The notes under the pieces: generated by a model
What the model was told of the DNA's origin: nothing
Database searches by the model: none
What the model saw: the letters and a program-made list of their open reading frames with translations, nothing else
Source of the DNA: Halichondria panicea
Lineage: Eukaryota; Porifera; Demospongiae; Suberitida; Halichondriidae
Reading direction: 5' to 3'
Assembly (NCBI RefSeq): GCF_963675165.1
Contig: NC_087377.1
Coordinates: forward strand, 2,464,824 to 2,528,823
DNA: 64,000 bases
Part shown: one piece after another, positions 22,757 through 50,499 of the stretch
Layout: each line of letters opens with the position of its first letter
How positions within the stretch are numbered: position 1 is the first letter of the stretch
Position numbers and translations under genes: made by a program

Positions 22757-23650
22757 TGTTCGATAGTCTCGCACCAGCCCCGATTAAAAATAGTTATTTA
22801 CTGATTCAGTCCGTATATCAGAGGAGTAGGAAGATGTTTTTGTAAGGGGGTGCTTTACAAATCTGGGGGTCCGGGGGCTTGCCCCAGGAAAATTTTGGCA
22901 CTCTACATTCCCGGAGATTAATTCTGAGCAAATTTGGTATAAAATTATCAGTATCAAAATTTTTATGCTATATACTTTAAATCTATTAAGTGGGTATGAA
23001 TATACAATAAAAAAGATTGCATTGCATGTGTCATTGTACTTCGGAGGAACGTTTCAATCTTCGCAGTGAATGTTTTAACTACAGCATGTCTATTTTAGGA
23101 TCCAATTACACTTGATCTATAGTCTAGCTACCCTCTTTAGTAGCTGTTCATGGCTACCATTGATGTCAAAAATGAGAGGAGACTTGCTTGTTGCAGATTC
23201 GCAATGTGCTTGCTCGAGATATCTACGATGTGGTTCATCTAGCTGACCTTTGTACTGTGTACGTAACTATGCTAGTATAGCTAGCTAGCTAGCTAGCTAC
23301 TAGCTGGACTTCTAGCTAGCTGCTTCATGGAGCAAGTAGGTAAGGTAGCTTGAGATAAGGGGGTGCTCCAGCACCCTGAGCACCCGTGCTTCCTACGCCA
23401 CTGTATATATCCTAGGTGATGTCAATTCTGATGTTCAAATGACTGTTTTGCTGTTTTTGCAGTAAATAAATCAGTTGTTGACTGGTTGCCTAGTAATTAT
23501 GGTTTATAAACAACCTCAGCCTCGGGCTGCGCCCTCGGCATTGGTTGTTTATAAGCCATGATTACTAGTCAACCAGTCAATAACTATAACTTATGGACCT
23601 AGCGTTCAAATAGAAAACAATTGGGGCTGGCTGTGCGAGACTAGTTGTTC
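22757..23650. mobile_element. Nested inverted-repeat element
   Basis: The outer arms 'tagtctcgcaccagcccc' and 'ggggctggctgtgcgagacta' are inverted. Inside, 'tatcagaggagtaggaag' and 'cttcctacgccactgtata' form a second inverted pair around 22815-23410. A C/G-rich 'gggggtccgggggcttgcccc' lies between. This looks like one DNA element inserted into another. No transposase frame survives. Confidence 0.5.
23474..23584. repeat. Long hairpin with ~38-bp arms
   Basis: The arm starting 'ttgactggttgcctagtaat' is mirrored by the arm ending 'gattactagtcaaccagtca', with a short GC-rich turn containing 'gcctcgggctgcgccctcgg'. The arms also include the mirrored 'ggtttataaacaacc' words. It is non-coding and repeated at +23,200. 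Confidence 0.7.
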
Positions 23651-23781
23651 GAGCAGAAGTAACACTGAGCTGTTTCTTCGCAGCAGTAAGTTTAGTAGCC
23701 ACATCCACCTAGTCATTTTCATAGCTACTATAATTAAATCTGTGCGCTGCTATTTTTAGAACATACGTTTTATCTCTACAG

Positions 23782-26700: not shown

Positions 26701-26867
26701 TTGCTTGTCAGTACAGTAGTGCCATGCAATAGTGAATTGTATAATTATAGTAAGAACAGCATTCCAAGTGTTTGCAATACACACTGTCAAAATGGTATTG
26801 GATATATACTGCAAGTGTAGGTTTGCTAGTTGCTGACTCTTGTGTCTCCCTCCCTCCTCATGCAGGA
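23782..26867 (+). CDS. Orphan array of three Death-like exons, unit 1
   Basis: Exons are 23782-24120, 25241-25288 (linker reading GNAVTPLATPHTTTQS), 25393-25728, 26299-26646 and a terminal exon from 26866. All internal exons are phase 1 at both ends and join in frame into about 350 residues containing three Death-like domains (signatures LGLSNAEISAID, LGFSDAEIGAID, LGLSDAKIDAID). No start codon, GTPase or Ig exon precedes them; upstream sequence is transposon DNA. The final Death exon ends in T and the next exon begins GA, giving TGA at the junction. The array may be a donor pool for exon exchange with the ROC-COR genes, the 3' part of a gene whose 5' end was lost, or exons spliced from far upstream. 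Confidence 0.6.
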
Positions 26868-27299
26868 CTGGAGGTCATGGATCAGTCAAGACCATCATAC
26901 ACTACCAACACTTAGACACTTAGGACAATGGCCTGGATTTATCTATTTTAAGTTTGTTTACTTGCTCTTGTTATTTATTTTGTGTGTGCAATTGAATTAT
27001 TCTCCTCTAGACATCCTCTCCATTGTAGTTGGTATGGGATCACTTCAGTTGCAGCGTCTTGTTAGAGTTAGTGTCTTTAGGGAAAGCAATAATTACGACC
27101 ATTACCTACTCACGGTGAATCTGCCAGCAGGTGTCAGTCTAGTACAGTACAGTGCAGTGCAGTGCATGCTAGTGGCGGTGCTATAGGATAAGAATGGATG
27201 AATGCATGAAAGGATGGAGGTGAGGGGAAATGCTTTGTAGAGACGGTACCTGTTATAGGCTCCTAATAATGATCTTCCACTGTTTTTGTTCATAATTAT
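26868..27299. other. Downstream of the Death array; no clear gene
   Basis: A segment starting after 'ctcctctag' near 27010 is open for about 60 codons (DILSIVVGMGSLQLQRL) but matches nothing known and has no obvious donor. It may be part of a 3' UTR. Confidence 0.3.
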
Positions 27300-27621
27300 G
27301 CACCTATCAATGTGTTGCCCCACTACCCCCCCCCCCCCCCCCCCCCCGGGACATACGAGGGGATTTGACTCAATTTGACCTGACATTTTGGCCCCATACT
27401 GGGGGATTTGGCCTGGCTTTGCGTAGTAAAGACTGCTTTTATAGCCTGTTTTTATGCAGGCAACTGCTTGGGGCTTAAAACCCCCCTGTTGACTGGGGGA
27501 TTTGAACACAGAATCCTCCCCCACCTGGGGGAATTTGACCTGAGGTATGGTCAAATCCCCCATATAACCCCGACCACTCCCGGGGGGGCCGGGGGGGGTG
27601 GGGCAACACATTGATAGGTGC
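27300..27621. mobile_element. Complete 322-bp MITE with 24-bp inverted ends and ATTAT target duplication
   Basis: The left end 27300-27323 (gcacctatcaatgtgttgcc...) is the exact reverse complement of 27598-27621. The element is flanked by ATTAT on both sides (27295-27299 and 27622-27626), a clean 5-bp target-site duplication. The interior holds long C and G runs and repeated 'gggggatttg' words, so the minus strand shows a spurious long open frame. Related incomplete copies are at 18150 and 7680. Confidence 0.8.
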
Positions 27622-27626
27622 ATTAT

Positions 27627-28160
27627 TTCCCGATAGTACTGCTTGCCCATGTGTTAGACTTTATTGGTGGAGGGTGCTCAATATTGAGCAACCATACGCT
27701 AGCTGAGTTGGCATGGGCTGAGAGATTTCCCTATGTCATGGTATTTTAAACTACAGTATGGTATATACCATATAAGGCCAAGGATTAGCTTGAGGTTCGC
27801 TTGGTAAATGTCGCTTGCACCTATAATAAGTGTGTGTATGGGGGGGGGGGTAGATATGTGTTACTGGTGGTGCCAGTAATATCTTTATACGTACATGCAT
27901 GTATGGACATGTGGGACTATTGGAGGTCTGACCTTTCACTAATTATGACCTTTTAATGACATTCTACCAAATTGCTTGATAGCTTATTGTAGCTACAATT
28001 ACTGATAATTGTACTTCCTCAAAGCATTCCACTAGAAAAGGGGATGATCTTTGCTTTGTTTACTGTGAAAGGGGACACCTCTCTGAAAAGGGGGAGGATC
28101 TGAGCAATGTTTACTGATAAACAAGGCTGAAAGGGGCGAAATTTCCATAAACTATTCTTT
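27627..28160. other. No gene; spacer before the satellite
   Basis: It contains a run of about 10 G near 27840 and a segment at about 27915-27970 that is closely matched in inverted orientation by the filler at the duplication junction (34003-34053). No exon was found. Confidence 0.4.
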
Positions 28161-29538
28161 ATGTGTGGTCCCACTGTGTGCACTGTAGCTATAGTGTACA
28201 GAGCCTATAGTGTGGTCCCACTGTGTGCACTGTAGCTAGTGTACAGAGCCTATAGTGTGGTCCCACTGTGTGCACTGTAGCTAGTGTACAGAGCCTATAG
28301 TGTGGCCCCACTGTGTGCACTGTAGCTAGTGTACAGAGCCTATAGTGTGGTCCCACTGTGTGCACTGTAGCTAGTGTACAGAGCCTATAGTGTGGTCCCC
28401 ACTGTGTGCACTGTAGCTAGTGTACAGAGCCTATAGTGTGGTTCCACTGTGTGCACTGTGTGCACTGTAGCTAGTGTACAGAGCCTATAGTGTGGTCCCA
28501 CTGTGTACACTGTAGCTAGTGTACAGAGCCTATAGTGTGGTCCCCACTGTGTTTACACTGTAGCTAGTGTACAGAGCCTATAGTGTGGTTCCACTGTGTG
28601 CACTGTAGCTGGTGTCCAGAGCCTATAGTGTGGTCCCACTGTGTACACTGTAGCTAGTGTACAGAGCCTATAGTGTGGTCCCACTGTGTGCACTGTAGCT
28701 AGTGTACAGAGCCTATAGTGTGGTCCCACTGTGTACACTGTAGCTAGTGTACAGAGCCTATAGTGTGGTCCCCACTGTGTTTACACTGTAGCTAGTGTAC
28801 GGAGCCTATAGTGTGGTCCCCACTGTGCGCACTGTAGCTAGTGTACGGAGCCTATAGTGTGGTCCCCACTGTGTGCACTATAGCTAGTGTACAGAGCCTA
28901 TAGTGTGGTTCCACTGTGTGCACTGTGTGCACTGTAGCTAGTGTACAGAGCCTATAGTGTGGTCCCACTGTGTACACTGTAGCTAGTGTACAGAGCCTAT
29001 AGTGTGGTCCCCACTGTGTTTACACTGTAGCTAGTGTACAGAGCCTATAGTGTGGTTCCACTGTGTGCACTGTAGCTGGTGTCCAGAGCCTATAGTGTGG
29101 TCCCACTGTGTACACTGTAGCTAGTGTACAGAGCCTATAGTGTGGTCCCACTGTGTGCACTGTAGCTAGTGTACAGAGCCTATAGTGTGGTCCCACTGTG
29201 TACACTGTAGCTAGTGTACAGAGCCTATAGTGTGGTCCCCACTGTGTTTACACTGTAGCTAGTGTACGGAGCCTATAGTGTGGTCCCCACTGTGCGCACT
29301 GTAGCTAGTGTACGGAGCCTATAGTGTGGTCCCCACTGTGTGCACTATAGCTAGTGTACAGAGCCTATAGTGTGGTCCCACTGTGTGCACTATAGCTAGT
29401 GTACAGAGCCTGTAGTGTGGTCCCTATACTGTGTGCACTGTAGCTAGTGTACAGAGCCTATAGTGTGGTCCCCACTGTGTGCACTATAGCTAGTGTACAG
29501 AGCCTATAGTGTGGTCCCCACTGTGAGCACTGTAGCTA
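28161..29538. repeat. ~46-bp satellite with 467-bp higher-order repeat, unit 1
   Basis: About 30 tandem copies of a 45-47-bp unit whose core is 'agcctatagtgtggtcccac' followed by 'tgtagctagtgtacag'. Variants (gtgtacactg, gtgtttacactg, gtgcgcactg, ggtgtccag) recur in the same order after exactly 467 bp: the segment at 28553 repeats at 29020. The array thus has a higher-order period of about ten units. The unit length is near 45, so one minus-strand frame stays open; this is not evidence of coding. Confidence 0.9.
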
Positions 29539-29777
29539 TACGTGGTGGACTAATATGGTTTGCATTTCAATTGTAGTGAATGTGGGCTGTCTAGTCATCA
29601 AGTCTGTGGAATGTGGGGGATGAGTGGTGGTATGCGCTTAACCAATTTCATTGAACCATGTTAAGTTAAGTATAAACACGTTTACTAGTGATACTCATTT
29701 GAAAGCTCTCAATGAGACGAATCTTATAATACCCATATCATCACACCCTCACACAACACACACCCGCCCACACACAG

Positions 29778-30327
29778 GCACTGGGCATACTACTGTTCAA
29801 GCTGTGCTTCATGGATACTCCATTTGGTGACAACCCTCTAGCCATGGTCAGTGCTCAGTACAGCATTCCTGAAGACTCTCCCTACACACAAGACCTGCAC
29901 AACTTGAGAGGTAAGACCACACCCACACACACAATCCTAGTGAAATGTAGCCAGGTTTATGCATAATTATGTTAACTCTAAGCCTATAATTATAAAGACT
30001 ATTGATAGTGAGTTTTTTCTTTGTGAAATGGACCTGTTTTCAGAGCTAACTTTGAGAACACACACTAGCTACAGGTGCTATGATATTCTGCCAGCCTCAA
30101 GTGTATTGCTCTATTATTATAATGATACGTATAATTATTGTCCCCTTTGTAGGCATCATCTGTTGACCTCTGACCCTGAGCTGCGTCCCAGTATCTGGCA
30201 AGTGTGTGAGGTGGTGTCCAGGATCACAGGAACCACCAACCATGTCACTAAAATGTACTGGGACGAAGCTCAGAGTCAGAGGTCAACAATAAGCTCTATA
30301 TTTATATACCATTGGATTCGTTCTTAA
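29778..30327 (+). pseudogene. NAK-family kinase (AAK1/GAK-like) C-lobe fragment, unit 1
   Basis: The exon at 29778-29910 reads ALGILLFKLCFMDTPFGDNP followed by QYSIPEDSPYTQDLHNL. After the intron, 30153 onward reads HLLTSDPELRPSIWQVCEVV. This is the end of the protein-kinase C-lobe as found in the AAK1/BMP2K/GAK group, kinases that act in clathrin-coat assembly. Joining at the only clear donor and acceptor gives a stop after four residues, so a one-base change is needed. The N-lobe, catalytic HRD and DFG parts are absent; a satellite array occupies the upstream DNA. This is a truncated, frameshifted fragment. Confidence 0.7.
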
Positions 30328-30506
30328 AAAGCGCTTCTATCTGTATGCTGTAGAGCTGATAAGCTCCAACCAGCTAACAGTTAGCTGTTTTCGTAGCCTT
30401 AAAATTGTTACTAAACGCAATAATTATTAATGCTTGCCTATTTCTAGCACTACGGTACCTCCATGTACTACATGTACTACATGTATAATTATTTTTTATT
30501 GTGCAG

Positions 30507-31384
30507 CTAAAAGGTGTCCTCATAAATAGAACACAAATAGAAGATTGGATTAAAGGTACGTTTTTGCACATGAATTATTATTGGCACACACCACCCACGC
30601 ACTGCACACATGTTTACGGCCTCACACACACACACCCCCACACACACCCACTCCACACATCACACAGGCGAGACACAGACATACACATGACTCGTCACTA
30701 CCACCATTCGTGTTTCCCTATGATCTCGGTTACAAGAGGAACTTATCTCAAGTCATTAATTGGTCTGGGCGTAGTCAGGGCAATGGCCTCGAGTGGCAAG
30801 TGGCCAAAGGATGTTTAGAATTTTCACTGACTGTTGAACAATTAGAACAAAAGAAACTCAAGCGAAAGCAAGCAGTAAGTCATTGACACGTATTGTATTT
30901 TTTTATTAAATTGTTGCGTTTGTCCTAGGTGACTTGCCGAATTAAACAAGATTATTCTGGTTCTAGTTGCCCTTTAAACTTTGGACTCTTGCTGTGTCTG
31001 TGTACCCCACGCTTTGAACCAAAGATCAAGGTTCAAGAGGGTGATGTGTTCAGTGTCACGCGATGGGGTCGGTACTGGGTCTATGGTGACAAGACGCTAT
31101 CAGAAGGTTCGTAGATAATAATTTATTACTTTGATTTGCAGAGGCTAGCTATTCTTTGATGGTCGATATCTTCAATTAGGATTGTCCAATTACAAATCTA
31201 AAGGACTATAATAGCAAGAGTTCAATGAACTCTTGATAATAGATGTCACTTAGCGATTGCTTGCAGGCCTAAACTTCTAAATGTTTTCGTAGCTAAATTT
31301 AAGCGGCCATAACTTGTATGTGTTGCAAACATCCGATTCCCCAAAAATAATCGATAAAAAAGTTTATTATACATCCCCCACATG

Positions 31385-31419
<35 letters not shown>

Positions 31420-31612
31420 ACACACACACACGCACACACACACGCACACAGCTCTGTCTGAGAAAGGTGTGGTGGTGCGTGGATGGTTCCCTCGTTCCTG
31501 CGTGGTTGCCATAGATACCAGTGATGACTCAGAGGAGGTCACTTCAGATGACCCGGGGTCAGAGGTCAAATCAAAAGTCGTCAAGAGGAGAAAAGAACAA
31601 TCGAAACAATGA
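30507..31612 (+). pseudogene. ZDHHC6: ZDHHC6-like palmitoyltransferase C-terminal fragment, unit 1
   Basis: Four exons (30507-30555, 30668-30874, 30929-31106, 31452-31612) read LKGVLINRTQIEDWIK, FVFPYDLGYKRNLSQVINWSG, GNGLEWQVAKGCLEFSLTVE, QDYSGSSCPLNFG, RYWVYGDKTLSE and VVVRGWFPRSCVV, in the order found at the C-terminus of ZDHHC6 (its SH3-like tail). The DHHC catalytic domain and the transmembrane segments are not upstream. Exon 1 ends in phase 1 but exon 2 is open only in phase 0, so one frameshift lies at this join. The later joins agree and the last exon ends with a lysine-rich tail and TGA. ZDHHC6 is an ER S-acyltransferase; this copy cannot be catalytic. Two of its introns end in CA tracts. 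Confidence 0.75.
31376..31451 (+). repeat. (CA)n tract forming the last ZDHHC6-like acceptor
   Basis: A CA repeat with CG interruptions runs directly into 'cgcacacag' and the final exon. Confidence 0.75.
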
Positions 31613-31903
31613 ACTGTAGAACAATAATTATAGCTGATGATGTTAAACAATGGAAAATATGGGTAAGATATGATTATAATTATGACCAGGCGGAGTACAT
31701 GTACTAGCACTAGCACTAGCTCCATCTCGAGGCTACCGAGTTGATAGTCTGAAATACCCGCCTCAACCTAAAAGCTGATTTGACACAATCAGCTTCATTC
31801 CGGAAATACCTGAAATACAGAAAGCGGGTGTGGCACTTTGCTGAAAAGGGGCGAACTGAGACAAAGAAAGCTCAAGTGTGTCTATCAGTAAAGCTTCAAT
31901 ATA

Positions 31904-34900
31904 ATGGCTACTGGGCAAGACTCCGGGTGAGTGAACATGTAGACTATAATTACTACTCATGGTAGCACCTTGTGATTGCATGGAGGGAGGCTCATTCCAT
32001 TAGTAGAGTCAGAGCTGGCTATGATCAGAGGTGGAACACTGTACAGCAAAGTGACAGCTGGATATGTGCATGGTGTCACTTGTATAAACTATATACACAT
32101 ATCAAGTAATTCTCTGTATGACTGACCCCCCAACCATCTATATATTTTATACAGCGCTCAAAAGAAGCTAGCCGAGGACTTATACGAGGCCGAGGACTTA
32201 TACGAGGCTGTAGACGAACGTGACGTCGTCAAAGTTAGGTCTCTGTTGGGACATGGGGCAGACCCCAACCACCAGCTCTACTGGAGTGACGAGTGGGGAT
32301 ACAAGAAGCCTCCATTACACTTGGCTTGTGATAAGGGCCACCTTGAGATTGCGAAGACACTTGTTACCCATGGAGCTCGGACTGATAAAGGTGATGGGAC
32401 GTACAGCAAGACTCCACTTCACTGGGCATGCCAGGGAGGTGATAAGGAGATGGTGCAGTACCTGATCCAAGAGCTCAAATGTAGCACTGGTAAGCAGTCG
32501 TGTATTAATAAAATAATGTTTCTCCGTATCTAAATTTAAACAGTATAAATCCCACTTGGAGTCTGTATCATAGCAACTGGGTGGGGTTTAACTACCATAA
32601 TCTCCGCATTCCTCATAAACTCCCTTGCCTTGAGGGAACATAATAATTATGTAGGCCTATAGCGAAAAAATGTTTAGAGATTAATTTGTGTTAAATTTGC
32701 TTATATTTTACGTAGTAAAACATTTGCAATGTACGTACGTTAGTACAGTATTACTTATGCTTTTGTGTATGATGTATTTTACAGTTGAAAAATTGTCCTG
32801 ATTTGGTTGAATTACTGTACTTGACCATTTTGTTTCTCCTTTCACCATAATAATTAGTATCTGTGTGATAGTTGAACTCTGTTCCACAACAGACGTGAGG
32901 GATAAGGATAACATGACTCCTCTTCATCAGGCTTGTATATGGGGAAATAAAGACGTGGTACAGTATCTGGTGGAGGAGAGGAAGATGGATGTTGGTGAGA
33001 TTTAGTGTGCTCTTGATAGTCTAGCTCTGTATTTGTTCCCATAGCTTCTACTGTTTGTCTTTGCTTCTGCCCAGTTGATATTAGACACAGATTCTGTGTA
33101 ACTACCGTATAGCGCGAAATTTTCGAGGCACTTATATTTCGTGGATTGGCCTCTAAAAACAATTCGTTGCACAATGTTCGCGGAATGACTGCTTACCGGA
33201 AGCCACACCTTTAAATCTTTGCAAGTTATAGCAGATAATAGAACAATTTTTGTAGACTTAATTTTTGTGTAGCCACGAAATCCGCGAAAATTAAGCCCCT
33301 CGAAAATTTTGCGCTATACGGTATTTTGTTTGACTCTGTGTAATGTACAGATGTGAGGGATGGTGAGGGACAGTCACCACTGGACAATGCTCTGAAGGGT
33401 TCTGATGTTGTGTGTTATGAGGACTGTATGGATGTTGCCCTCTACCTGATGAGCCGTGGCTGTGCATGTGGTGATGAGGACAAAGCCAGGTTACTCTGTG
33501 AGGCATGTGACCTTGGCGAGCTGGGTGTCGTGAAGGAACTTGTTGAGCAATACAAAGTTGACCCCAACAGTAAGTATTAGTATGTACTTCGTGGAGAAGG
33601 CCAACTGTGATATCAGTGAGTACAACACAACCACCATGCAGTGTTATACCTTTGTTTCTACACCCACTCTTGCTCAGGTGTAACTGACTTTAATGGCAAG
33701 ACTCCTCTTGACCTTGCTACACAGGAGGGTCACACTGAAATTGTTGACTACCTCAAGTCTCTACCACAACAATGTAAGCTCACTAGGATCATGAGTACAC
33801 AGTGTGGTCCAATACAGCTACTCTCTCTATACAGCTGCTGTGACTGGAGACACTGACTCCAGGAGTGACGAGAATGGACCACCACCAACAAAGAAACGAA
33901 AAAGTAACTATTATCTCATGTGCACGTACATCTTAATTCATCTCTACCATTTATACGTCCCCGTCTCTCACACACACACCACACCCACACTTATACACAC
34001 ATTTTGGTTGAATGTCATTGAAAGGTCATAATTAGTGAAAGGTCACCTCCAATAGTTGGTTTTTATGTACTGACTGTCAGACAATTGTCTCATTCCTCCT
34101 CCAGTGACCTCTGACCCTCTGTCTGGTCAACAGACACCCAGTGCTGGCGATGAACAACCAGAAACAACTGGTAGGTGACTCTATTATAGCCCAACAATAA
34201 TCATGTGCCTACCCATCTACTGTAGAACGAAGACCTTTCGGTTATATACTGTGTTACATGACTTGTTACTTGTACACCTCAGATACTCAAAATGATTCCA
34301 CACAACTTTCAACGGATGACCAAACCTTGTCAAGTGAGTAATACCAGGGCATACAGTGCATGGGGAGGAAAGTGGACCAATTTACCCTCCCCCATAATGT
34401 TATAGGCTATAATTATTATAATGTGTATTCAATTACTACCTTGTATGATTGAGTATGTGAAAAGACAACGTATATAAAACCGCCCAGAATTCGATCACCT
34501 AAGAACACCTAATTAAACTGGGCACATGTCCTATTTCCCTGTATAGTGTTCATTTTAATATTTCTGTGATTCTGATTGTCTTAAAGTGTTATAGCTGAAG
34601 TCACGTATCATGTTAACACTAGCCAATAATGCACAAATGTGTCAGTATGTATTCATTTGGTGTTTTTTTAATTATTGTTAGCTTTGTCAACATTGCTGGT
34701 TGTGTTTGCAGGCACTCCATTGACTGAGGAAGACTCTGATGCTCTAGAAAAGCTGCTCCTAGACAACAAAATCTCTTTGACTGGTGAAAGGACATATGAG
34801 ACAGTAGTTCACCACCTTCGTGAGCTCGGACATATGGAACTTGCAGCCAACCTGAGGGAAAACCTCGACAAAGGTGGGTAGTAGTTAGTAAGAGCTGTGG

Positions 34901-37900
34901 GTAGTAGTAGGTGGGTTGCTGTATTGAAGTTACACTCACCTGTGTTGAATATTGCATTGCATGAAGCCCCTCAAGATGAAAGGGGGAACATAACAGCCAT
35001 AACTTTAGTACTGTAGATATGAGACCTTTTAAATAATATTATGTTTATACTATTTTATAGTTGAATAGCACGATCGAGGGCTTAACGTACTTATGATGGT
35101 AGATATTGCACGTTGTGATACTTCAATATATATTCCATTACTACAATAACGAATATGATGTACTGTATCGTTATACATTTTGAATGAGCTGCCTTACGTT
35201 GCTGTTCCATTTTTACGCCAGTGGTTCAATGACTGTTTTAAAAATGCAACGGGTAAATTATTACTTGAAGCCCCTAAAGATGAAAGGGGGTTATTTCACT
35301 TTAAGTATACCAGTTGATCTGGGTTTTTGAAAGAAATGATGTATTTATTATTTGTAGCACATTAGTAGACCACATTAATTTTAATGATATATATACCTAA
35401 TTTGATACCGCAAATAACCACAGTAAGTTATTAGGTTGGTGGGTGGTGCATTAGGCTCCCCACCATGCCTAATAAACTTTTTTGATACCATTTGAAAGAT
35501 CTCGCTCTTAGAAAAATAATCATTGAAAAATTGAATCCACGGTATTCAATGTGAGATGCATACAGGATATAAATTATATTCGGCTTCAGTCCAAATTGCC
35601 TGTGTATAGTTGTGATGTAAACTCTCAGTGCATGTCTGTACAATATCAATAACATAACGTGTTTGAGTGTATACAGTTTAAGAATTATTGCTCTTTCTTA
35701 TATGCAGTGATTAGAGAGCAAAAGCGATATCTGAAGAAATTGGACGATCTGATGACCGACAAAGACACTATCTCCATGCAGTACCTCCGCCTACTTCTTG
35801 TCGGGCCACCATTCGTGGGGAAAACAACAACTCTTGGCCGTTTACTGAAAGATATTGAAAACATTAGTTCTGCTGGAGACAAGGCAAAGCTACGCAGTAC
35901 GCTACTCACCAATTGCCACCAAGTAGTCGCCTACATGAACAAAGATGCCACAGAATGGGTTTATTCCAAAGACGTAGAAGAGGAAGCAAAGATCCTCTTT
36001 GGCTACATGTACAGTAGCAAGGTCGATGTTCCGAGTGCCCCAACTGAGAAAAAGACAAAAACTGTCCCCGAAAGCGAAAAGCACACAAGCATACCCAAGC
36101 CACTTTCTCTTGAAAAGCCTCAGTCAAAGCTTGAAGAAGAAACACGCTCTGAAATACAAGAGAATGCTCACCAACAAAACAGGCTCATACCCATCAAAGC
36201 TAGATTACAAAAACTGATAAAGAACGGAAACTACTCCGAAATGGCCAAATGTCTCGGCAACACCTTGCTAAACATCAACGATGTTGGAGGACAACCTGCC
36301 TTCCTAGAAATGCTACCAGCCGTATGTAATGGTCCTGCCATGTATCTAGTGTTCTTGGATCTAAGCAAGGAACTTAACGAACCCTACGATATTCCCTTCA
36401 GTCGTGACGACACAGTCATTACTCCATTCAAAGCTGCTCACACAGTGGAAGCCACAGTCTCTCAAATCCTCTCAGCAGTTGCCAGTATCCATCACGTCTC
36501 TCAAGAAGATGCCAAGTACAAAACCACCTCCAAATTGAGCGAGAAGTTTGAAAAGTTCCAACAAGTTCGTCCGGTAGCAGCTTTGATCGGTACTCACGTG
36601 GACAAGTTGGAGAATCCAAAAGAGAAAATCAAGCAAGTCAACGATGCTCTGAAAGCAACCACTCAAAAGTTTGCTGAGATCCTTGTATCACCTCCGTCAG
36701 ATTCTGAATCTTCCTTTTTTGCCGTGGACAACTTTGCTGGAACGGAACAGTCTGACATTGCCCCGATTCGTGATTTCCTGAGCGATGTTTTTGCGTCTCA
36801 TTTCAAGGATGCATCTCTGCCCATCAAACCGAAATGGCTCCTACTGGGCACACTACTGCGGATGGAGTACTCAATCGTGTCGATGGAAGACTGTCTAGAA
36901 ATCGGGAGATTGTTGGAGATGGATGAAGAAGATACCAAATTCTGTCTTTGGTAAGCTTGTAATTTTTGTATTCCTTCCAATTAATGCATATATGTACGGC
37001 AAACATTTAATACAGTAATTACCTCCAATACATGTACGTACGATTTGTGTGTCCATTATTATTCTGTTATAGTTCTCACCTAACCCCCCCCCACACCCAC
37101 CCACACACACACACACACACACCCACCCACACACACACACACACACAGGTACCTACAGAAGATTGGATCCATACTCCATTACGGGAATGTACCCAATGAT
37201 ATCGATGGCTGGCTAAGCAACCACATGTTCTGCACCCCTGAAGTGATCTTCACTAGCATCAGCCAACTGATCCTTGCTGCTTTACGCATCCTCCATTCTG
37301 AAGGCATTGTCCTCGAGATTGAGCGAGCAGACTTGATCAAGATGGGACAGTTTTCACTGGAGGCCATTATCAAGTACTGTAATGGTCCTGATGTTGCAAA
37401 ACTGCTCAAGAAAGGAGAGATTATCCCAGCCAAGCATCTCATCATACTGCTGCAACATCTCAACCTTCTCTCAGAAATTGTCCACAAAGATGCCAATGAT
37501 TCGAAGGTCACTCGAAGCACGTACCTCATGCCGGCTGTTTTGGACTGTGCTTTACAAGACGAGCTAGCCAACCCACCTCAACCAGACACCAACAACCCAG
37601 AACCACTCCACATCGCATTCAGCTTTGGTTACGTACCAACAGGAGTCTTCTGCGGGCTCATCACTCGACTAGTTTCCCAAGGCCCTCACGGAATTCTAGG
37701 ATTGATGTGGGAATTGGTGGAAGATGGCGTCAAACGAAACTGCGTCTCCTTTTATGTTGACTACGTACACAAAGTGACACTGCTCTCTCACGACAGAAGC
37801 TACGAGATACGAGTTGAACGCAATGCAAAACAGATGGATTTATCTCTTCACGATCTTTGCTCCCACACTTTGTCAGCAATCCTGTATATGCTCAAGAACC

Positions 37901-40793
37901 TGTTCCCAAAGTTGATCCTCAGTGTTGCATTTCAATGCTCCTGTCCCAAACACGCAGCAAGCAAGAGTCTCAACAACCTTTGCACCCTTGTTCAAGGCCG
38001 AAAGATCTACTTCCTGTGTGGTAGAAGTCCCGTCACCCTCAGTGAAGCACAACAAGTGTGGTTGGGGAAGGTGAGCTATTCTCCTGCATGCATGTTGGCG
38101 ATGTGTGATCTAAGCTAATACTCATGTACAGCATTTGGAGAAAAGAGACCGTTTGTTATAATAATTATGGCTGATAATGACTTTGTGTGTATGTGTACAG
38201 ATAGGGTGAAGTTTTTTAGGGTGTGCAAGTACAATAGTATAGGACTAAACTTGGTGTACTGTTACATGCAGCATTAATCAGAAGGTATAAAAAATAATAA
38301 GCTTGTGTGTTCTATATACGTGGACAAGTTTGTTTAGTTTGTTAATGTGTCTCGCATTTTCATTTCCCCTTTTTTGTCTTGTCCCTACAGCACGTGTGTC
38401 TAGGAAATAGGACGGAACTAGAGGTGCTAAAGTTTGCTGAGGATGGTTTCTCCTTCCACTGGAGCAAAGAGGGCTCCAGACGTCAGATTAAGACAACTGA
38501 TGATCGGCCCAACACTGTCAGCTTCCCGAGTGTGAGAGAGGAGGACTTTGGTCACTACCAGTGTGAAGTGAAGGATGCAGCTGCTGGGAAAGTGCTCCTC
38601 ACTCTCTACACAGCTCTCTACAAAGAGGACACAAGTCAGTTATCTAACCTCAAGTATCCCCGTTGTCCTAGTTGATCCCATTTATCACATACTAAGTTGT
38701 GATTTTCTACTTATTATACATAACCAGTCAGTGTACACAGTGTTTACTTCCTCTGCCCCACAATGACAACAGAACTCTTACAACTGCCCAATTCTATTTA
38801 CCATAATTATGTGTGAAGCTTTTTATTTGCTAGGGGGCCACTTGTGTATTTAAAGTGTTTGCATTACATTAACTACCGTATAGCGGGTAATTTTCGAGGG
38901 GTAAAATATTCGTTATTTCCGTGGGCAAGCTCCCTATGAAAACAGTTTACCAAAACGCATGCAATGCAGTACAGGCAATAACAGACAAAAATTACCGTTT
39001 TCGATTTGTCAATGAATGCCATGGATTTTTACTCCACGAATATTACCCACTATCTATCTTACTCCCAGTTCTATCAGATCGTAATTCCATGTAGCTATCA
39101 TAATCGGATTGCTATATTCGAAAGCCTTCAGTCTGGAAAATACATGATCTTGATTCCTACAGGCCCCATTAATATTAGTGTGTCTAGCTGTATCTGTTCC
39201 TACACACTACGTACAGATCTTCTAGCCTCAGGCCAGCGCAAAAGGTCATTGCCATCAGATGTAGAAGTTGAATCTCTGTCGAAGCGTCCAAAGAATGATG
39301 TCACTGTACAAGGTATAATTATCTGCAGTTTAAATAACATTCAGTAAAACATGTGTTTGTATACTGATTTTAATTGTGTGTGTAGACAGTTTTATGGTAT
39401 AATTATAATTTAATAATTTACGCTGTGCCCATCATGGTGTCATACAGAGGAAATGATGTCACTTAACTGTGTATGTTTTATCTGTACAGTTCAACAACAT
39501 AAGACGACAGCGACTACAGCTCAGTTGAGTCAAGAGTGCTCGGATGAAGCTCTTCTCCAGTTGTCTACCGAGATAGCTGGCTATGACAAATACAAGCTCA
39601 GGCTGGGCCTCAGTGATGCTGAGATTGAGAATATCGATCAAACCATTGATAATATCCCAGGGAGATTTCACGCTGCTCTAAAGAAGTGGAAGAGTAAAAG
39701 CATCAATTTCGATAATCCATCGAAATCGTCAGCTACTTACGGTCGATTAGTGGAAATTTCCTCAGAGATTGAGGACGGAGAGGCAGTTCGCAGCATTCAC
39801 AAGGCCTGTGTCAAGGATACATGTGAGTTACCTTATTAACTTTGTGAGCTTGCTCGTCATGCAGTTGTGCCATGCAATAATAGTATACAGCATTCTAAGT
39901 ACTATAATTGTACATGTACATGTCATTGGTACGACTCTCCTATAATTATACTAGCTTATTTCCCCTGCCTAATCCATTTTTTCACATGTTTGTTGGAACT
40001 TTAATATTGATTTTAGCATAAGCTAATTAAGGGAACAACTTAATGTGATCACTATAATTATTCACGACATAATTATTGTACAAGTATAGCAATCTAAATT
40101 GAAGCAATCTTCAATTATAGCCTTGACAGTTGTATTGTGTATGGGGTCTCATGTGACAGTGATAAAATATTTGGTGTACATTTCAGAGTATAGCGTTGTA
40201 TGTCATTGGAAATAATGTGATCTGTACAGTTCAGCCACATGAGACGATAGTGACAGCGACTGCAGCTCAGTTGAGTCAAGAGTGCTCGGATGAAGCTCTT
40301 CTCCAGTTGTCTACCGAGATTGCTGGCTATGACAGATACAAGCACAGGCTGGGCCTCAGTGATGCTGACATTGGTGCTATTGATCTGACAATTGTTGGTA
40401 TTCCAGGGAAATTCCTCGCTGCTCTAAAGAAGTGGAAGAGTAAAAATATTCTCCAATTCAATCCATTGAATTCAACAGCTACTTACGGTCGATTAGTGGA
40501 AATTGCTGCAAAGATTGAGGACGGAGAGGCAGTTCGCAGCATTCACAAGGCCTGTGTGGAGCATACATGTGAGTTACAAATAATTATACCTAGTGAATGA
40601 TCACTTCGACCATTACCTTTGTGAGCTTGCTTGTCAGTACAGTAGTGCCATGCAATAGTGAATTGTATAATTATAGTAAGAACAGCATTCCAAGTGTTTG
40701 CAATACACACTGTCAAAATGGTATTGGATATATACTGCAAGTGTAGGTTTGCTAGTTGCTGACTCTTGTGTCTCCCTCCCTCCTCATGCAGGA
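31904..40793 (+). CDS. Predicted chimeric gene across the duplication junction: ankyrin repeats + ROC-COR GTPase + Ig + two Death-like domains
   Basis: Ankyrin exons are 31904-31926, 32155-32489, 32893-32994, 33351-33569, 33678-33773 and 33835-33903. ROC-COR exons of unit 2 follow: 34105-34170, 34283-34333, 34712-34873, 35708-36950, 37149-38070, 38391-38634, 39217-39312, 39490-39822, 40230-40568 and 40792-. The last ankyrin exon ends in phase 1 (after PPPTKKRK, a nuclear-localisation-like run), and the first ROC-COR exon needs phase 1. The join is therefore in frame, and the total of 4302 coding bases ends at a TGA formed across the final splice (1433 residues). Seen: P-loop GPPFVGKTT, DVGGQ (36280-36294), THVD (36592-36603), and the COR, Ig and Death exons. 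The ankyrin part starts MATGQDSG and contains PLHLACDKGHLEIAKTLV and similar repeats. Transcription of the fusion is inferred; two separate genes, or read-through termination inside 34 kb, are alternatives. Confidence 0.6.
33105..33321. mobile_element. TA-flanked MITE (mariner-type ends) inside an ankyrin-gene intron
   Basis: The left end CCGTATAGCGCGAAATTTTC and right end GAAAATTTTGCGCTATACGG are inverted with one base difference, and TA flanks both sides (33103-33104 and 33322-33323). The element ends just 28 bases before the 3' splice site of ankyrin exon 4. The unit-2 copy is at 56305-56521. Confidence 0.75.
34003..34053. other. Filler sequence at the tandem-duplication junction
   Basis: These about 51 bases belong to neither flank of the duplicated unit. 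They closely resemble, in inverted orientation, the sequence at about 27915-27970 ('gaatgtcatt', 'aaggtcataattagtgaaag', 'acctccaatag'), roughly 6 kb upstream in unit 1. This looks like a templated insertion made during the rearrangement, or a small dispersed repeat that mediated it. Confidence 0.65.
35708..38070 (+). CDS. ROC-COR coding exons of unit 2, split by an extra intron
   Basis: The region equivalent to the single 2.2-kb exon of unit 1 is here divided into 35708-36950 and 37149-38070 by a 198-bp intron whose 3' half is a (CA)n/CACCC tract. The join (TTC TGT CTT TG / G TAC) restores an uninterrupted frame reading CLWYLQKIGSILHY, aligned with CLLYLHSIGSILYY in unit 1. The N-terminal two-thirds differs clearly from unit 1 at protein level. 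From about 37731 the DNA becomes almost identical to unit 1 from 14013. Confidence 0.8.
38879..39053. mobile_element. MITE of the 'accgtatagcggg' family, unit 2
   Basis: Orthologous to the copy at 15163-15342, with a few base differences. Confidence 0.6.
39490..39822 (+). CDS. Death-like domain exon 1 of unit 2
   Basis: It encodes LRLGLSDAEIENIDQTID with RFHAALKKWKSKSINFDNPS, a version distinct from the unit-1 exon at the same place. It is phase 1 at both ends. No GNAVTP-type linker exon precedes it, unlike unit 1. Confidence 0.7.
40230..40568 (+). CDS. Death-like domain exon 2 of unit 2
   Basis: It encodes HRLGLSDADIGAIDLTIVGI, RFLAALKKW-type helices (here KFLAALKKWKSK) and the shared TYGRLVEIAAKIEDGEAV. 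It ends in T before the donor, so joining to the acceptor at 40792 gives TGA. Confidence 0.7.
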
Positions 40794-41236
40794 CTGGAGG
40801 TCATGGATCAGTCAACACCATCAGACACTACCAACACTATAGAACCATAAGCACATTTGCACATTATTTTGTTTTGTTTGACGCTTATTGTGGTAATGAA
40901 TGAAGTGGCATGAGTTTTTTTTACTGACAATGTTCTTGGTATGGATCCTTCAACTTGGGAACAAATATTAGCCAGTAATCTGGTAAAGTATCACTGCAGT
41001 AATGAATTTATAAATTTGCACATGGCCTACTGAGCTAGCTATCGTAGACTCGACTCTGCATGCTATAGACTAGACTAAGAGCTTCACAGCTAGGCAGCAT
41101 TGAAATAGTATAAATGTTATAGCTCCAGTTGCTAACAGAGATGGCTCCATGCACACGAGGAGCAGTGTAGAGAGAGAGAGCTAGCCAGAGAGTGACTGTC
41201 TCGAGGCATCCTGACTGAGTGCTGCTGCTGGTGGAT

Positions 41237-42263
41237 ATGGTGGCTAGTCTGCAGAGGGAGCTGGACAATGCTAGGGTGAGTAGTGTCAGGTCTTATTGAG
41301 TGGACCTAGATACTCTATCTATAGACTAGCTCTCTAGCTCCCTTTGTTGTAGTGCACCTATCATCAATGTGTTGCCCCAGAGGTCCGACATGCGTGCACG
41401 AATCACTACAAATGTTAGTGCATTTGGCCTGGACTTATCACATGACATGACCACAATGCACTGAACTTATAGTGATTCGTGCACGCATGTCGGACCTCCT
41501 CTGGTGTTGCCCCACTACCCCCCCCCCCGGGACATACGGGGAAATTTGATCTAATTTGGCCTGAAATGTTGGCCCCATATATACGGGGGGATTTGACCTG
41601 GCTTTGCGTAGTAAAGACTGCTTTTATAACCTGTTGATGTCATCATCATTTGTTACAAGCAAGCAACTTTACCTTTTCTATTTAAGTGAATCCGAAAAAA
41701 GGCTTGTACATAATTTATACATGTTGTAATCTATGTCAGAGTATACAATTTCTAAAGCTGGTCACTTTCCCTAAAAGTACATAATTATACATGTTTGTGA
41801 TCTAATTGTAGTATAATCTTATGTCATCGTATACAATTTCCTAAAAATAACGAATAATAATAATTATTATGTTCACATGTGTGTACAGGAGGATTGTCAG
41901 CAGAGGAGCATCCTAGCAAAACTGACCAAACAGTAGAAATTCCAAAACTGTTTCTGACTGGAGCTGATCCAAATAATTCGCGATAGTCTCAAAAATGCAA
42001 GCAAAGATTGGTTTGATTTAGGATTGGCTCTCGGAGTGAATATTACTGACTTGAAAGACATTGAAGACCAACACGCTAGTAACAAACGACGCCTAACAGA
42101 GATGGTGGGCAAGCGTCTTGAAGTCACTCATCCACCCATGACATGGCCTTACATATGTGAATGTCTAAGGAGTCCTACTGTTGAGCGTAACGATGTAGCC
42201 GAGGAAATTGAAGGCAAGTATGTGAGGACAGCAACTGCAGTTGCTCATAGTGCCACCAATTGA
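41237..42263 (+). pseudogene. Coiled-coil/Death gene with frameshift, unit 2
   Basis: Copy at +23,200 of the 18037-19063 gene with the same first exon (41237-41275) and the same frameshift before the Death domain. No repairing difference was seen. Confidence 0.6.
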
Positions 42264-42579
42264 TCATGAGAACCTGACAAGGTACGTTTGTACTAATGTA
42301 TTATTATGATCCTTTACTGATATATACTTTTTTTATTGCATAGCTTGAAGGGGACGAATAAAGTAAAGAAGCATAAAGAAGCATACATGCAAGAATTAAG
42401 TAAAGAATTGACTGACTCTGTGCTAACAATGTCGTCTATATAGCCATTATTATAAAGTATGAGTACTGTGACATGTTCAAGCATTGTTCATTTGTTCCTT
42501 GTAAGGGATCAGCATCTTATTCTTATAGAATAATTATTTATAATTGAGGTGTTTGTTTGACGATCCTTACCCACTGGCC

Positions 42580-43231
42580 ATGTGGTACAATGGGGTCAAG
42601 GAAGTACTTGCACTAGCGCTACTCGCGAGCACGGCGCTGCTATTACTAACCGTCTACCTCAACAACACAAGTCTCTCCTGTCATAAAGAGCTACCACGAG
42701 TACAGCATCCTGTACAGAAAGGTGTGTGGATCTACCAGCCATTATATTCTGCACCTAGTATCAATCATCTCTATAAAAATAATAATGTCTTATTCATTTT
42801 CCTCGTACAGCTATCGGTGGGTCAGGTATCCAGCACTGAACAGAATATTGACCAGCGACTACTAACACTCAGTCTAAAACCAGACATTGAGCTCAGGGGA
42901 AAGGTGATGTAATGAAATAATGACTATAATTATTTCACCTTTCCCCTGAGCTCAATGTCAATGTATACTTTATACGAGGCAATAATATTTCAGAAGCTAT
43001 CTTTGATTGGCAACAACTTGAGTTCAATTACAATTCTAAAGAATGTATTTTGTAGCTTTTTGAAAGGCCTATCAAATGGTGTGTTTAGATTAGCGATTGC
43101 TTTAATTTATAATGTCAGTAATTTGCCCCGGCCCTCTCTCCTAGGTTGGTTGCAGGAATATGAAGCGTCTCATGCTGTACGTGAGTGACAGTCTACCAAT
43201 GTACACTCTGGACTGGCCCTGGGTGGACTAA
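42580..43231 (+). CDS. Small predicted membrane protein, unit 2
   Basis: Identical in predicted exons (42580-42723, 42811-42903, 43145-43231) to the unit-1 gene at 19380, including the inverted repeat over the second donor. Confidence 0.35.
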
Positions 43232-43600
43232 AACAAGTAAGCTATCATAGACTATAATTATTAGCTGCAGCATTGGAAGATGTAATTATATGTCATGCAC
43301 AACATGCAGGTACATGTATCTGCCTAAAATGTTCCCAAGTTCTGGCTATTTTTAATATTCAATTTCCTGACAAATTTGCTTTTGATAGCCTAACGTGCGA
43401 CTCTAGATGGTTATTTATGTCCAGAGGTGGTTAGTACCAACCACCACCACCGACCAGTGTGGGCACATCCCTGTACATGTACTTGAACACTTATTACACA
43501 CCCCTCACCCATCCACTCCACCCACACACACACCCCACCCACACACTCACCCACACATGCACACACTCCACACCCATACACACCCTCACACTTCCCACAG

Positions 43601-44624
43601 GTTGCTAGTACGTTCCACGTTCTGTGTGCAGTGTACAAAGCTGTAGTGGCCAGAGAACCAGACTAGAAGTGTCTACTCTGAAATAATTTTCTCTCTCTCT
43701 CCTTCAACGAACGTAAGCAGTGATGGTGTATGACATCATGATTATGACATCTTTGTGTACAGATCAGCGAATCTTTCAAGAGATTGGGAATTAAAGACAC
43801 TTCGCAAAATATTCTCCTATAGTGGCACTGCATTCAAATGAGGCTGATGCAAAGGTATCGTGCATTTAGTGCATTCAGTAGCTGAAATTTCTTATCATAC
43901 CACTACCTCTAGATCGATCTAGCCACTACCCACATCATCTGAAAAGCCTCTGTCTAAGCGTTAATTCACATTCTTGGAGCCGTTCAAAGATTCTTTTTTC
44001 CCCCCTCCCTTTCTTCCACTATTATGCATTTCTTTGATCACTACAACCTGTAACCATTCATTATTTTCTCACTCAGGCGTCTGATTTATTGGGCATGATT
44101 GAGGGTGACCTAACACCATTGCAAGGCATCCACTCGTGTAATAATACACAGAGTATAATCAAGGTAACCATCTCAAAGCACAACCTTTTATCAAAGAGCT
44201 TTTATCGTGGCAGTTTCTTAATACGATTTAAGTAATAACACACGGCCTGGAAGTACATGTACACTTTTTTACTAGAACTTCTGTCTTACATAAGCATCAA
44301 ATACAATTAACGCTAGTAACGCGAACATACTGTACAGGGTTGCATCCAAGGGCCCCCCCTGGTCACAATTTCTACCCCCCCCCCTAGGATCTGTCAGATT
44401 CATTAATAGGCATATAATTCTGATAACTTCGCCCCACCTACATTTTTCATTTCCCCAATTCGCCCCCCCTGATTCAAAATCCTGGATACAGCCCTGATAC
44501 AGTGAACACACCACACACCCACACACACCCACACACCCACACCCACCCACACACACAGGAGTACAAGATTCCTTCTGAAGAGCTGATCATAATTATACTC
44601 ACTAGTGAACTGTGTAGTTACTAG
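43601..44624 (+). pseudogene. TPRKB: Truncated TPRKB-like fragment, unit 2
   Basis: Copy at +23,200 of the unit-1 fragment with the same missing N-terminus and the same two frameshifts. The lesions are therefore older than the duplication, or were homogenised. Confidence 0.7.
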
Positions 44625-46981
44625 GCTAGTCATCAAACACGTTACCTAGGTCACCATAGTTAATGTGTTGTGTGGTGGCTATAATCATTATCAAGAGTTC
44701 ATGAACTCTTGTCATTATCAACACCCACACATTCTACTTCTCTAGATCTAATGGAAGTCTATAAACTTGCATATAGACGCCTTTTGAGTGGGCCAATAAT
44801 AATGATGTCTCTATAATCAAGGCATATAATCTTTTCAGTGCAGTTGGCAAACAACGAACGATTATATATATGGAATGGGCCTTGAATGGACTTGTTTTGC
44901 GACGGCATGTACTTGTACTTGCGCAATTTTATGTTTTGTGACGTTGACTCTTGTACCTATAGCTATGCTAATATTTATAATAGCAAGAATCACTACGTAC
45001 ATGTGCACGATTGTTTCTCTTATAAGTTATTAGCAATTGCAAAGCAATGAATTGTTGAAAAAAAGTTACTGCCTAATGAAAGGCAAGACTGCTGCGGCGC
45101 CTACAGCTCAATACTGATAGTGCACTAGCCTCGATCCCAGGCCGCACTTCCCACTTCCCTAGTGATGAAGGAATCGATCTTAGATCATGTTTGCCATAAA
45201 TACTGCAATTTGATTGGCTAAAGGAAGTGTTCTACCAACTTAGAAAATCATATACTTATTTAGATCATGTTTGTCATAAATACTGCAATCTGATTGGTTA
45301 GAGGAATGTTCTATCCAATTTAGAAAATCATGTACTTCAATAGAAAATCATGTACTTCAATAGAAAATCATGTACTTCACTTAGAAAATCATGTAGCAAA
45401 GATTAGATAAGAACATTCAAATCTGATTGGCTAAATACTCATGGTTGCTATGATCTAAAATGCTTAGACACTGTTTAGGAAGTTTCCACATGATTTAGAA
45501 GTCTGTCCTCAGGGCTAGTAGAACCCTCACTGCGTTCGGGATACTACAACCAGCCCTTTGGGCTTCTAAATCATGTAGAAACAGTTTATATCCCATTGCT
45601 ACGTTGTTGCCAAGTGCAATATGCAGCATAATGCACTGCTGAAAGTCACAATGCACTAACCGCAAAGTCATAATGCATAACCACAAAACGCCCCTCTGCC
45701 AATTAGACAGACAATTAAAATTATCATGAGAAATTAATAACAAGTATCAAAGTAAAGCCATGCAGGAATGTTCAGGTCGAGCCACGCCTAACTAAGCCAC
45801 GCCCAACTAGTTCTCGACCTTGTGATGCATGTCAATTCTGTTTCACCATAGCACTAGAAGCAGCTCTTTTTGCTGGGGGCTTGAGCTGTCTTGCAGCAGT
45901 GTAGAGGCGAGCTTCTTGGCTTGGTTGTGATGCCGAGGATAGAACACGTGGAGGGTTGTTCGATAGTCTCGCACCAGCCCCGATTAAAAATAGTTATTTA
46001 CTGATTCAGTCCGTATATCAGAGGAGTAGGAAGATGTTTTTGTAAGGGGGTGCTTTACAAATCTGGGGGTCCGGGGGCTTGCCCCAGGAAAATTTTGGCA
46101 CTCTACATTCCCGGAGATTAATTCTGAGCAAATTTGGTATAAAATTATCAGTATCAAAATTTTTATGCTATATACTTTAAATCTATTAAGTGGGTATGAA
46201 TATACAATAAAAAAGATTGCATTGCATGTGTCATTGTACTTCGGAGGAACGTTTCAATCTTCGCAGTGAATGTTTTAACTACAGCATGTCTATTTTAGGA
46301 TCCAATTACACTTGATCTATAGTCTAGCTACCCTCTTTAGTAGCTGTTCATGGCTACCATTGATGTCAAAAATGAGAGGAGACTTGCTTGTTGCAGATTC
46401 GCAATGTGCTTGCTCGAGATATCTACGATGTGGTTCATCTAGCTGACCTTTGTACTGTGTACGTAACTATGCTAGTATAGCTAGCTAGCTAGCTAGCTAC
46501 TAGCTGGACTTCTAGCTAGCTGCTTCATGGAGCAAGTAGGTAAGGTAGCTTGAGATAAGGGGGTGCTCCAGCACCCTGAGCACCCGTGCTTCCTACGCCA
46601 CTGTATATATCCTAGGTGATGTCAATTCTGATGTTCAAATGACTGTTTTGCTGTTTTTGCAGTAAATAAATCAGTTGTTGACTGGTTGCCTAGTAATTAT
46701 GGTTTATAAACAACCTCAGCCTCGGGCTGCGCCCTCGGCATTGGTTGTTTATAAGCCATGATTACTAGTCAACCAGTCAATAACTATAACTTATGGACCT
46801 AGCGTTCAAATAGAAAACAATTGGGGCTGGCTGTGCGAGACTAGTTGTTCGAGCAGAAGTAACACTGAGCTGTTTCTTCGCAGCAGTAAGTTTAGTAGCC
46901 ACATCCACCTAGTCATTTTCATAGCTACTATAATTAAATCTGTGCGCTGCTATTTTTAGAACATACGTTTTATCTCTACAG
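44625..46981. other. Transposon-rich interval, unit 2
   Basis: It has the same content as 21425-23781: tandem 20-bp repeats, the nested inverted-repeat element (45957-46850) and the long hairpin (46674-46784). No gene seen. Confidence 0.6.
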
Positions 46982-49900: not shown

Positions 49901-50067
49901 TTGCTTGTCAGTACAGTAGTGCCATGCAATAGTGAATTGTATAATTATAGTAAGAACAGCATTCCAAGTGTTTGCAATACACACTGTCAAAATGGTATTG
50001 GATATATACTGCAAGTGTAGGTTTGCTAGTTGCTGACTCTTGTGTCTCCCTCCCTCCTCATGCAGGA
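46982..50067 (+). CDS. Orphan Death-like exon array, unit 2
   Basis: Exons 46982-47320, 48441-48488, 48593-48928, 49499-49846 and 50066- repeat the unit-1 array at +23,200. A single T/C difference (23866/47066) is synonymous (ACT/ACC, Thr). It has no start exon, as in unit 1. Confidence 0.6.
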
Positions 50068-50499
50068 CTGGAGGTCATGGATCAGTCAAGACCATCATAC
50101 ACTACCAACACTTAGACACTTAGGACAATGGCCTGGATTTATCTATTTTAAGTTTGTTTACTTGCTCTTGTTATTTATTTTGTGTGTGCAATTGAATTAT
50201 TCTCCTCTAGACATCCTCTCCATTGTAGTTGGTATGGGATCACTTCAGTTGCAGCGTCTTGTTAGAGTTAGTGTCTTTAGGGAAAGCAATAATTACGACC
50301 ATTACCTACTCACGGTGAATCTGCCAGCAGGTGTCAGTCTAGTACAGTACAGTGCAGTGCAGTGCATGCTAGTGGCGGTGCTATAGGATAAGAATGGATG
50401 AATGCATGAAAGGATGGAGGTGAGGGGAAATGCTTTGTAGAGACGGTACCTGTTATAGGCTCCTAATAATGATCTTCCACTGTTTTTGTTCATAATTAT

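Follow-up and report, generated by a model that had tools for sequence, protein, structure and literature searches.

A predicted gene in the sponge Halichondria panicea joins, in frame, the ankyrin exons of one gene to the ROC-COR, Ig and Death exons of another. We consider this fused model, at a probability of about two in three, to be a real member of an existing, expanded ankyrin-ROC-COR-Ig-Death family that was made by recombination at an intron position of that family. The gene lies within the window analyzed here, a 64,000-base stretch corresponding to positions 2464824-2528823 of contig 1 (C1), and the genome searched comprises 131 Mb in 39 contigs. A preliminary description of this DNA had recognized the fusion and ascribed its architecture to tandem duplication on the spot. 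The observation was sound and the claim too large: recombination most probably added one more member to a family that was already there.

Rebuilt from the sequence, the fused model opens with an ATG at 31904 on the plus strand and consists of 15 coding exons plus two bases, giving 4302 nucleotides and 1433 amino acids with phases that match at every joint. The exons, phases, lengths and the 33903/34105 joint previously proposed were recovered exactly on rebuilding, and both breakpoints are indeed intronic. All splice sites are canonical (GT at 15/15 donors, AG at 15/15 acceptors), and the TGA stop is formed across the last splice, completed by two bases of the next exon (40792-40793). Since every intron flanking exons 3-9 is in phase 1, any join among these exons keeps the frame; a frame match across the junction is therefore expected and is no evidence by itself. 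The codon spanning the exon 6/7 splice is A followed by TG, a methionine, at which an upstream exon ending in A could start. The window contains two units, each a ROC gene followed by a copy of a near-identical block, with the following features:

10475-17369, plus strand: ROC-COR-Ig-Death gene of unit 1, a different paralogue, with a 200-N gap just upstream of it at 9455-9654
17395-34001, plus strand: copy 1 of the near-identical block, from sequence comparison
31904-33903, plus strand: exons 1-6 of the fused gene, type A ankyrin, with exon 2-6 peptides 100% identical to the ankyrin gene of unit 2
31904-31926, plus strand: exon 1, ankyrin half
32155-32489, plus strand: exon 2, ankyrin half
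32893-32994, plus strand: exon 3, ankyrin half
33351-33569, plus strand: exon 4, ankyrin half
33678-33773, plus strand: exon 5, ankyrin half
33835-33903, plus strand: exon 6, ankyrin half, carrying a KKRK run
33904-34104, plus strand: intron with the recombination junction (type A intron, repeat piece, then ROC-gene intron)
34105-34170, 34283-34333 and 34712-34873, plus strand: linker exons 7-9, all phase 1-1
35708-36950, plus strand: exon 10, ROC-like GTPase with the motifs GPPFVGKT, DVGGQ and THVDKL, Pfam Roc below cut-off
37149-38070, plus strand: exon 11, COR-like region, Pfam COR-A below cut-off
38391-38634, plus strand: exon 12, Ig domain (Pfam ig 23.0 bits, cut-off 21.8)
39217-39312, plus strand: exon 13, at the start of the part with exons 13-15 and the stop (39217-40793)
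39490-39822, plus strand: exon 14, Death domain (Pfam Death)
40230-40568, plus strand: exon 15, second Death-like exon, alone without a Pfam match
40792-40793, plus strand: the two bases completing the TGA stop
40597-57201, plus strand: copy 2 of the near-identical block, from sequence comparison
55104-58704, plus strand: ankyrin gene of unit 2 with its own zinc-ribbon-like tail (tail exons at about 57244-57419 and 57919-58704, borders placed by eye)

A Pfam search of the 1433-residue model returned strong ankyrin matches, the ig domain at 23.0 bits and a C-terminal Death domain, a feature shared with the DAPK1 family, at 28.0 bits (cut-off 22.6), which bears out the Ig and Death assignments made earlier. 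The same search left Roc (15.2 bits, cut-off 27) and COR-A (14.6 bits, cut-off 35.3) below their thresholds. Roc scored similarly low in the unit-1 gene (20.9 bits) and in a copy at 1.77 Mb (14.7 bits). The fused protein carries GPPFVGKT at residue 407, DVGGQ at 566 and THVDKL at 670, which we take to be the G1, G3 and G4 motifs of a GTPase. Among profile comparisons with the PDB, profile A1 placed FtsY first (E 0.037) with the LRRK2 Roc domain at 0.2, and profile A2 was led by LRRK2 Roc (E 0.16), none of these matches being significant. NCBIfam likewise gave only weak matches below cut-off, with small_GTP first. The COR-A region of unit 1 reaches 25.7 bits (E 1.2e-5; cut-off 35.3) and stands in the right order after ROC. 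A genome scan with PF16095, a profile that also rings in one of 14 control genomes, listed 60 places, 25 of them over the cut-off; ten places of the ankyrin-ROC-COR family appeared at E 2e-5 to 6e-4, all below the cut-off, and the fused copy was absent from the list. A structure predicted for the unit-1 ROC-COR exon with three window sequences had a mean pLDDT of 33 and was unusable. The Pfam matches of the 1433-residue model include no protein kinase and no NACHT or NB-ARC with LRR, the combination sought for an NLR. The fused protein has no hydrophobic N-terminus, and its highest 19-residue hydropathy of 1.63 sits about at the usual membrane threshold; it is likely to be intracellular.

The junction itself is confined to the intron between exons 6 and 7. 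Up to 34001 the sequence is that of a type A intron with a CA-rich stretch, along which the unit-1 copy tracks unit 2 before diverging. A piece of a dispersed repeat follows at about 34000-34056, which is 91.5% identical to inverted copies at 27916-27974 and 51116-51174, up to 98% identical to copies elsewhere and identical to none among the matches listed. From 34054 onward the sequence is that of ROC genes found in an array. At its left border the repeat piece shares 2 bases with the preceding match, and at its right border 3 bases with the following one. Five of the array ROC genes, those that were read, share an upstream stretch, one of them over a shorter part, that is absent from the window copy before 34054. 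Palindrome-like elements with ends like TATAGCG also occur within introns of the fused gene, at 33104-33322 and 38878-39060.

The two copies of the 16.6-kb block differ by 2 mismatches and one 2-base indel. Type A ankyrin genes have a zinc-ribbon-like tail after exon 6, a name that rests on CxxC pairs in the sequence (11.3 bits against the Pfam double zinc ribbon, cut-off 27.3). The tail is conserved at 96.6-100% in 8 copies, unit 2 included, and at 75.9% in a ninth, with two further partial matches; this ending of the unit-2 ankyrin gene is absent from copy 1. Each block copy also contains a tandem repeat with a 45-base unit, about 29.6 copies and a 467-base higher order (28163-29538 and 51363-52738). 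Elsewhere in the window, an inverted repeat pairs 4433-4664 with 4902-5133 (232 bases, 89% complementary), and the 200 Ns at 9455-9654 lie near a switch from a mostly minus-strand array to the plus-strand ankyrin cluster. Outside it, C1:2448643-2454490 holds satellite-like repeats that recur about every 74 bases along 5.8 kb, and C1:2588824-2596597 is exactly identical over 7774 bases to C1:2621050-2628823, 32226 bases apart, a pair that is either a very recent duplicate or an assembly product.

Such near-identity raises the question of whether the junction or the duplicate is itself an assembly product, with a haplotype or repeat wrongly joined. The scarcity of differences between the 16.6-kb copies, the identical tandem pair 32 kb apart nearby and the 200-N gap would all fit this reading. 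It is nevertheless unlikely: the junction contains neither Ns nor a long shared sequence that could mislead an assembler, and the insert matches none of its listed relatives exactly (98% at best). An overlap of repeats would not create this junction either, given that no more than 2-3 bases are common to the sequences on its two sides.

The two ROC genes that precede the block copies tell a different story from the blocks. The preliminary description held that a whole ROC-to-ankyrin unit had been duplicated in tandem, which was not confirmed: the units are not alike over their whole length, as the block is alike and the ROC genes are not. At the protein level these genes share 52% identity in the ROC exon, 75% in the COR exon, 97.5% in Ig and 100% in exons 7-9, and they are thus different paralogues with parts in common (98.3% over 34054-35262 and 96.4% over 37513-39316). 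In searches with single exons, a place at 2.155 Mb gave the best match to the COR exon (94%) and the Ig exon (100%) of the window copy; five places match its ROC exon at 97%, and one at 1.80 Mb matches its last Death-like exon at 98%; the unit-1 ROC gene scores the same as a place at 1.34 Mb. The stretch 34054-35262 of the window copy matches unit 1 at 98.3%, better than it matches the 2.157 Mb copy (96.5%, 944 bases compared), which speaks against a single donor. Exon 7 with its flank is 98-99% like several array copies; six copies besides that of the fused gene reach 99%, unit 1 among them, and its likeness to unit 1 is therefore not special. The fused gene is a mosaic, and its ankyrin and ROC halves come from different source genes.

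These shared parts leave some room for a complete 23.6-kb tandem duplication of ROC gene and block, after which gene conversion would have overwritten one of the two ROC genes in part. This alternative differs from our reading in the event and not in family or function, so that the odds of the readings weighed here are not exclusive. The 96-98% likeness of parts of the two ROC genes speaks for it, as does the greater distance of the 2.157 Mb copy over 34054-35262. However, exon 7 and its flank are equally like several array copies, and conversion would have had to spare a block nearly free of differences yet rewrite much of the adjacent gene, which makes this course of events improbable as well.

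Searches of the whole genome place the fused gene in a larger context. DNA searches found exon 7 with its flank at at least 31 places and exon 6 with its flank at at least 38, and a protein search with ankyrin exon 2 scored 150 of 1459 candidates. At 27 of the 31 exon-7 places listed, the window counted, an ankyrin exon lies on the same strand within 8 kb upstream; among the scored candidates, those without one are the unit-1 gene and places at C1 2.273 Mb, C15 4.42 Mb and C6 5.86 Mb. The exon at 34105, previously taken for the first exon of a ROC gene, is thus normally preceded by ankyrin exons. An idea that the array ROC genes are without ankyrin exons, drawn from the DNA search with exon 6, was dropped once the protein search had placed ankyrin exons upstream of them.

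Exons 6 and 7 lie within 400 bases of each other at 9 of the 31 places listed, the window and 8 others. When the sequences were read, all 8 shared the intron position, one of them on another contig. The exon 6-7 intron is short in four copies (C1 12.09, 8.00 and 4.80 Mb and C4 3.36 Mb), and in all of these except the one at 8.00 Mb its final run of bases is almost that of the window intron. Three further copies, at 1.77, 2.44 and 1.42 Mb, have a similar intron start and end with a palindromic element between them that resembles the elements in the window introns; in the copy at 4.55 Mb exon 6 is diverged and the intron that follows it is longer and different.

To count the full layout, we scored COR places by distance, allowing ankyrin as far as 15 kb upstream and, on the downstream side, Ig within 3 kb and Death within 6.5 kb, a measure that does not prove a single transcript. 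Among the 120 COR places used after weak and fragmentary rows were dropped, 58 have ankyrin upstream, 38 of those also Ig, and 13 of those also Death; 41 have none of the other parts nearby. The 13 complete places include the window, and 12 others therefore show the same order by distance. One of the family's genes (C1 1.767-1.777 Mb) was read exon by exon and yielded 14 pieces without a stop, with AG acceptors at 13/14 and GT donors at 13/14, the exceptions, together with the exon 2 donor, falling where the alignment stops short of the exon end. Exons 5-12 and 14-15 of the fused model recur there in the same order; its earlier ankyrin exons depart from the model both in how many there are and in how they are ordered, and no exon 13 was found in this reading. 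Its Death domain scores 28.7 bits, above cut-off, with ig (17.7), Roc (14.7) and COR-A (17.5) below. For a gene at 4.80 Mb, 9 stop-free pieces were recovered, with a Death-like stretch of 19.1 bits, below cut-off, farther along. One of the array genes, at 2.09 Mb, shares the first-exon peptide and carries ankyrin exons ahead of exon 7; neither exon 4 nor exon 6 was found in it. This gene (C1 2.093-2.103 Mb) also has an extra exon-8-like exon before exon 7, as do three other array genes, and small repeated exon-like pieces ahead of exon 2. At C6:3.35-3.67 Mb, ankyrin, COR and Ig places form another array, with no matching Death exon within reach (18 places).

The genes form a large, much-expanded family that is possibly immune-like, and the ankyrin-ROC-COR-Ig-Death layout is the family's own and not new in the genome. 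What is locally new is the pairing of a type A ankyrin half with a ROC half resembling the array genes.

Whether that pairing is used is a separate matter. The junction could be real and the transcript still not read through it, with the ankyrin part ending in a short tail at about 34.03 kb and the ROC part truncated or separately started. Exon 6 read into the intron adds 42 residues before a stop, and no ankyrin exon was found upstream of the unit-1 ROC gene within the window either, although the 200-N gap lies there. We nevertheless hold this to be quite unlikely: a polyadenylation signal between the exons, one of the objections anticipated in the preliminary description, was looked for, and neither AATAAA nor ATTAAA occurs at 33904-34104, while the donor and acceptor are at positions used by other copies. 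That local tandem duplication first created the architecture is very improbable, despite the local in-frame junction and the zinc-ribbon-like tail that the type A ankyrin half keeps in 8 other copies, since neither ROC gene is a duplicate of the other and the layout, which recurs elsewhere in the genome and in diverged form on a second contig, very probably predates the window junction.

For a family member made by recombination, we propose that an ankyrin/zinc-tail gene contributed the promoter and the ankyrin exons, and an array paralogue the ROC-COR-Ig-Death exons. The join would have fallen in the intron where ankyrin and ROC parts of the family normally meet, at the same position, and phase 1 would have kept the frame. 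With its short insert and overlaps of 2-3 bases, the junction points to a template switch, which may have led from block copy 1 through the dispersed-repeat piece into an array ROC gene and back into the block; a switch out of the block and back would explain the order of the parts.

If the family encodes receptors, the ankyrin part is a candidate sensor. In seven type A copies, only 1 of the 22 residues of linker exon 6 is variable, and the ankyrin exons vary more. Designed ankyrin binders are randomised at six positions per repeat. Across the four repeats tested, located in exons 2, 3 and 5 (exon 4 and the opening portion of exon 2 do not align cleanly with the rule and were omitted), at least three different residues occur at 16/24 of these binder positions versus 5/106 others. 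The corresponding p of 9e-11 is only a guide, because the rule was picked after the alignment had been seen and the seven copies are related. A first version with five positions gave 16/20 versus 5/110. Masks slid along the repeat were also enriched, more weakly (p 0.0007 at +2, 0.004 at +3 and 0.017 at -1), and with a threshold of at least two residues the true placement gave 20/24 versus 29/106, with p 0.0003 at +2. This variation at binder positions favours a putative sensor role for the ankyrin part.

We also considered a dN/dS above 1 on the ankyrin exons, which was set aside as not significant and not clearly above 1. The ratio is 0.99 for exons 2-5 (bootstrap 0.70-1.40), so that positive selection is not demonstrated, and 1.33 for exons 3-5 (bootstrap 0.83-2.30). 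Per-exon values of 0.72, 1.39, 1.13 and 1.83 for exons 2, 3, 4 and 5 pool 21 non-independent pairs from the 7 type A copies. The set omits unit 1, which is identical to unit 2, and the 2625 kb copy, whose scores equal those of the copy at 2593 kb; it also omits three diverged copies (2587, 2619 and 4849 kb) and the 2633 kb copy, whose exon 2 was not among the sequences compared.

The sequence itself documents the gene model, the further copies, the intron position they have in common and the position-specific variation; we infer the expression of the fused gene, the mechanism of the event, ligand binding and signalling. By analogy with ROCO proteins and DAPK1, the fast-varying ankyrin face would bind a ligand, ROC-COR would then change its nucleotide state or dimerise, and the Death domains would recruit death-fold partners. 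On a broader and tentative view, which we put forward as a possibility, the genes could constitute a recombining repertoire of intracellular receptors, in which ankyrin/zinc-tail genes store diversifying arrays that ectopic recombination moves through phase-1 introns onto a ROC-COR-Ig-Death chassis, the window capturing a recent sensor swap. A ROCO family of this kind can change its sensor part without breaking the frame, and, should the swapped gene be expressed, the exchange of a sensor could be tested directly in an immune-like receptor of an invertebrate. A single fusion is by itself ordinary for this genome. Of more interest is the large ankyrin-ROC-COR-Ig-Death gene set to which it points, with a binding face that varies and a linker that hardly does in the copies examined, and with ankyrin variation that is position-specific.

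The architecture had been called unfamiliar, which is an overstatement. The ankyrin repeats of DAPK1 precede ROC, and its C-terminal layout is thus ankyrin-ROC-COR-Death without Ig; the full layout with Ig is not described in the literature searched, which covers few subscription journals and preprints and in part only sections of the papers. In the sections available, DAPK1 represents the third ROCO group, the one with a Death domain, and has a kinase before RocCOR, a C-terminal Death domain and no LRR (PMC6337361). The order of ROC-COR, putative in the fused model, and then a C-terminal Death domain without LRR is common to both; the fused model adds an Ig domain and a second Death-like exon, has no kinase match and belongs to a family of many copies instead of one. 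Brown-algal ROCO genes, proposed immune receptors that shuffle LRR exons, resemble the sponge family in being expanded and in having single-phase repeat exons that shuffle, but their repeats are LRR and not ankyrin, their exons are in phase 2 as opposed to phase 1 here, and only LRR-ROC-COR is described in the portion consulted (PMC11378527). ROC/COR combined with Death, TIR or kinase parts occurs in sea anemones and Aplysia, and sea-anemone NG3 and the ROCO-bearing TLR/MyD88-like proteins of Aplysia likewise shuffle ROC/COR with Death and immune domains; in the excerpts at hand, however, the partners are TIR with kinase, LRR or Death-like domains, without an ankyrin-Ig-Death layout (PMC5094078, PMC9334734). 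Among sponges, one species has a large NLR set, according to the part of the report available (PMC12909245). Excerpts of another describe expansions of Death-like domains with ankyrin repeats, in which TRADD-N takes the place of ROC-COR and the Death-like domains are N-terminal, and which share with the family described here a lineage-specific expansion and Death-like domains with ankyrin as the variable part (PMC8195603).
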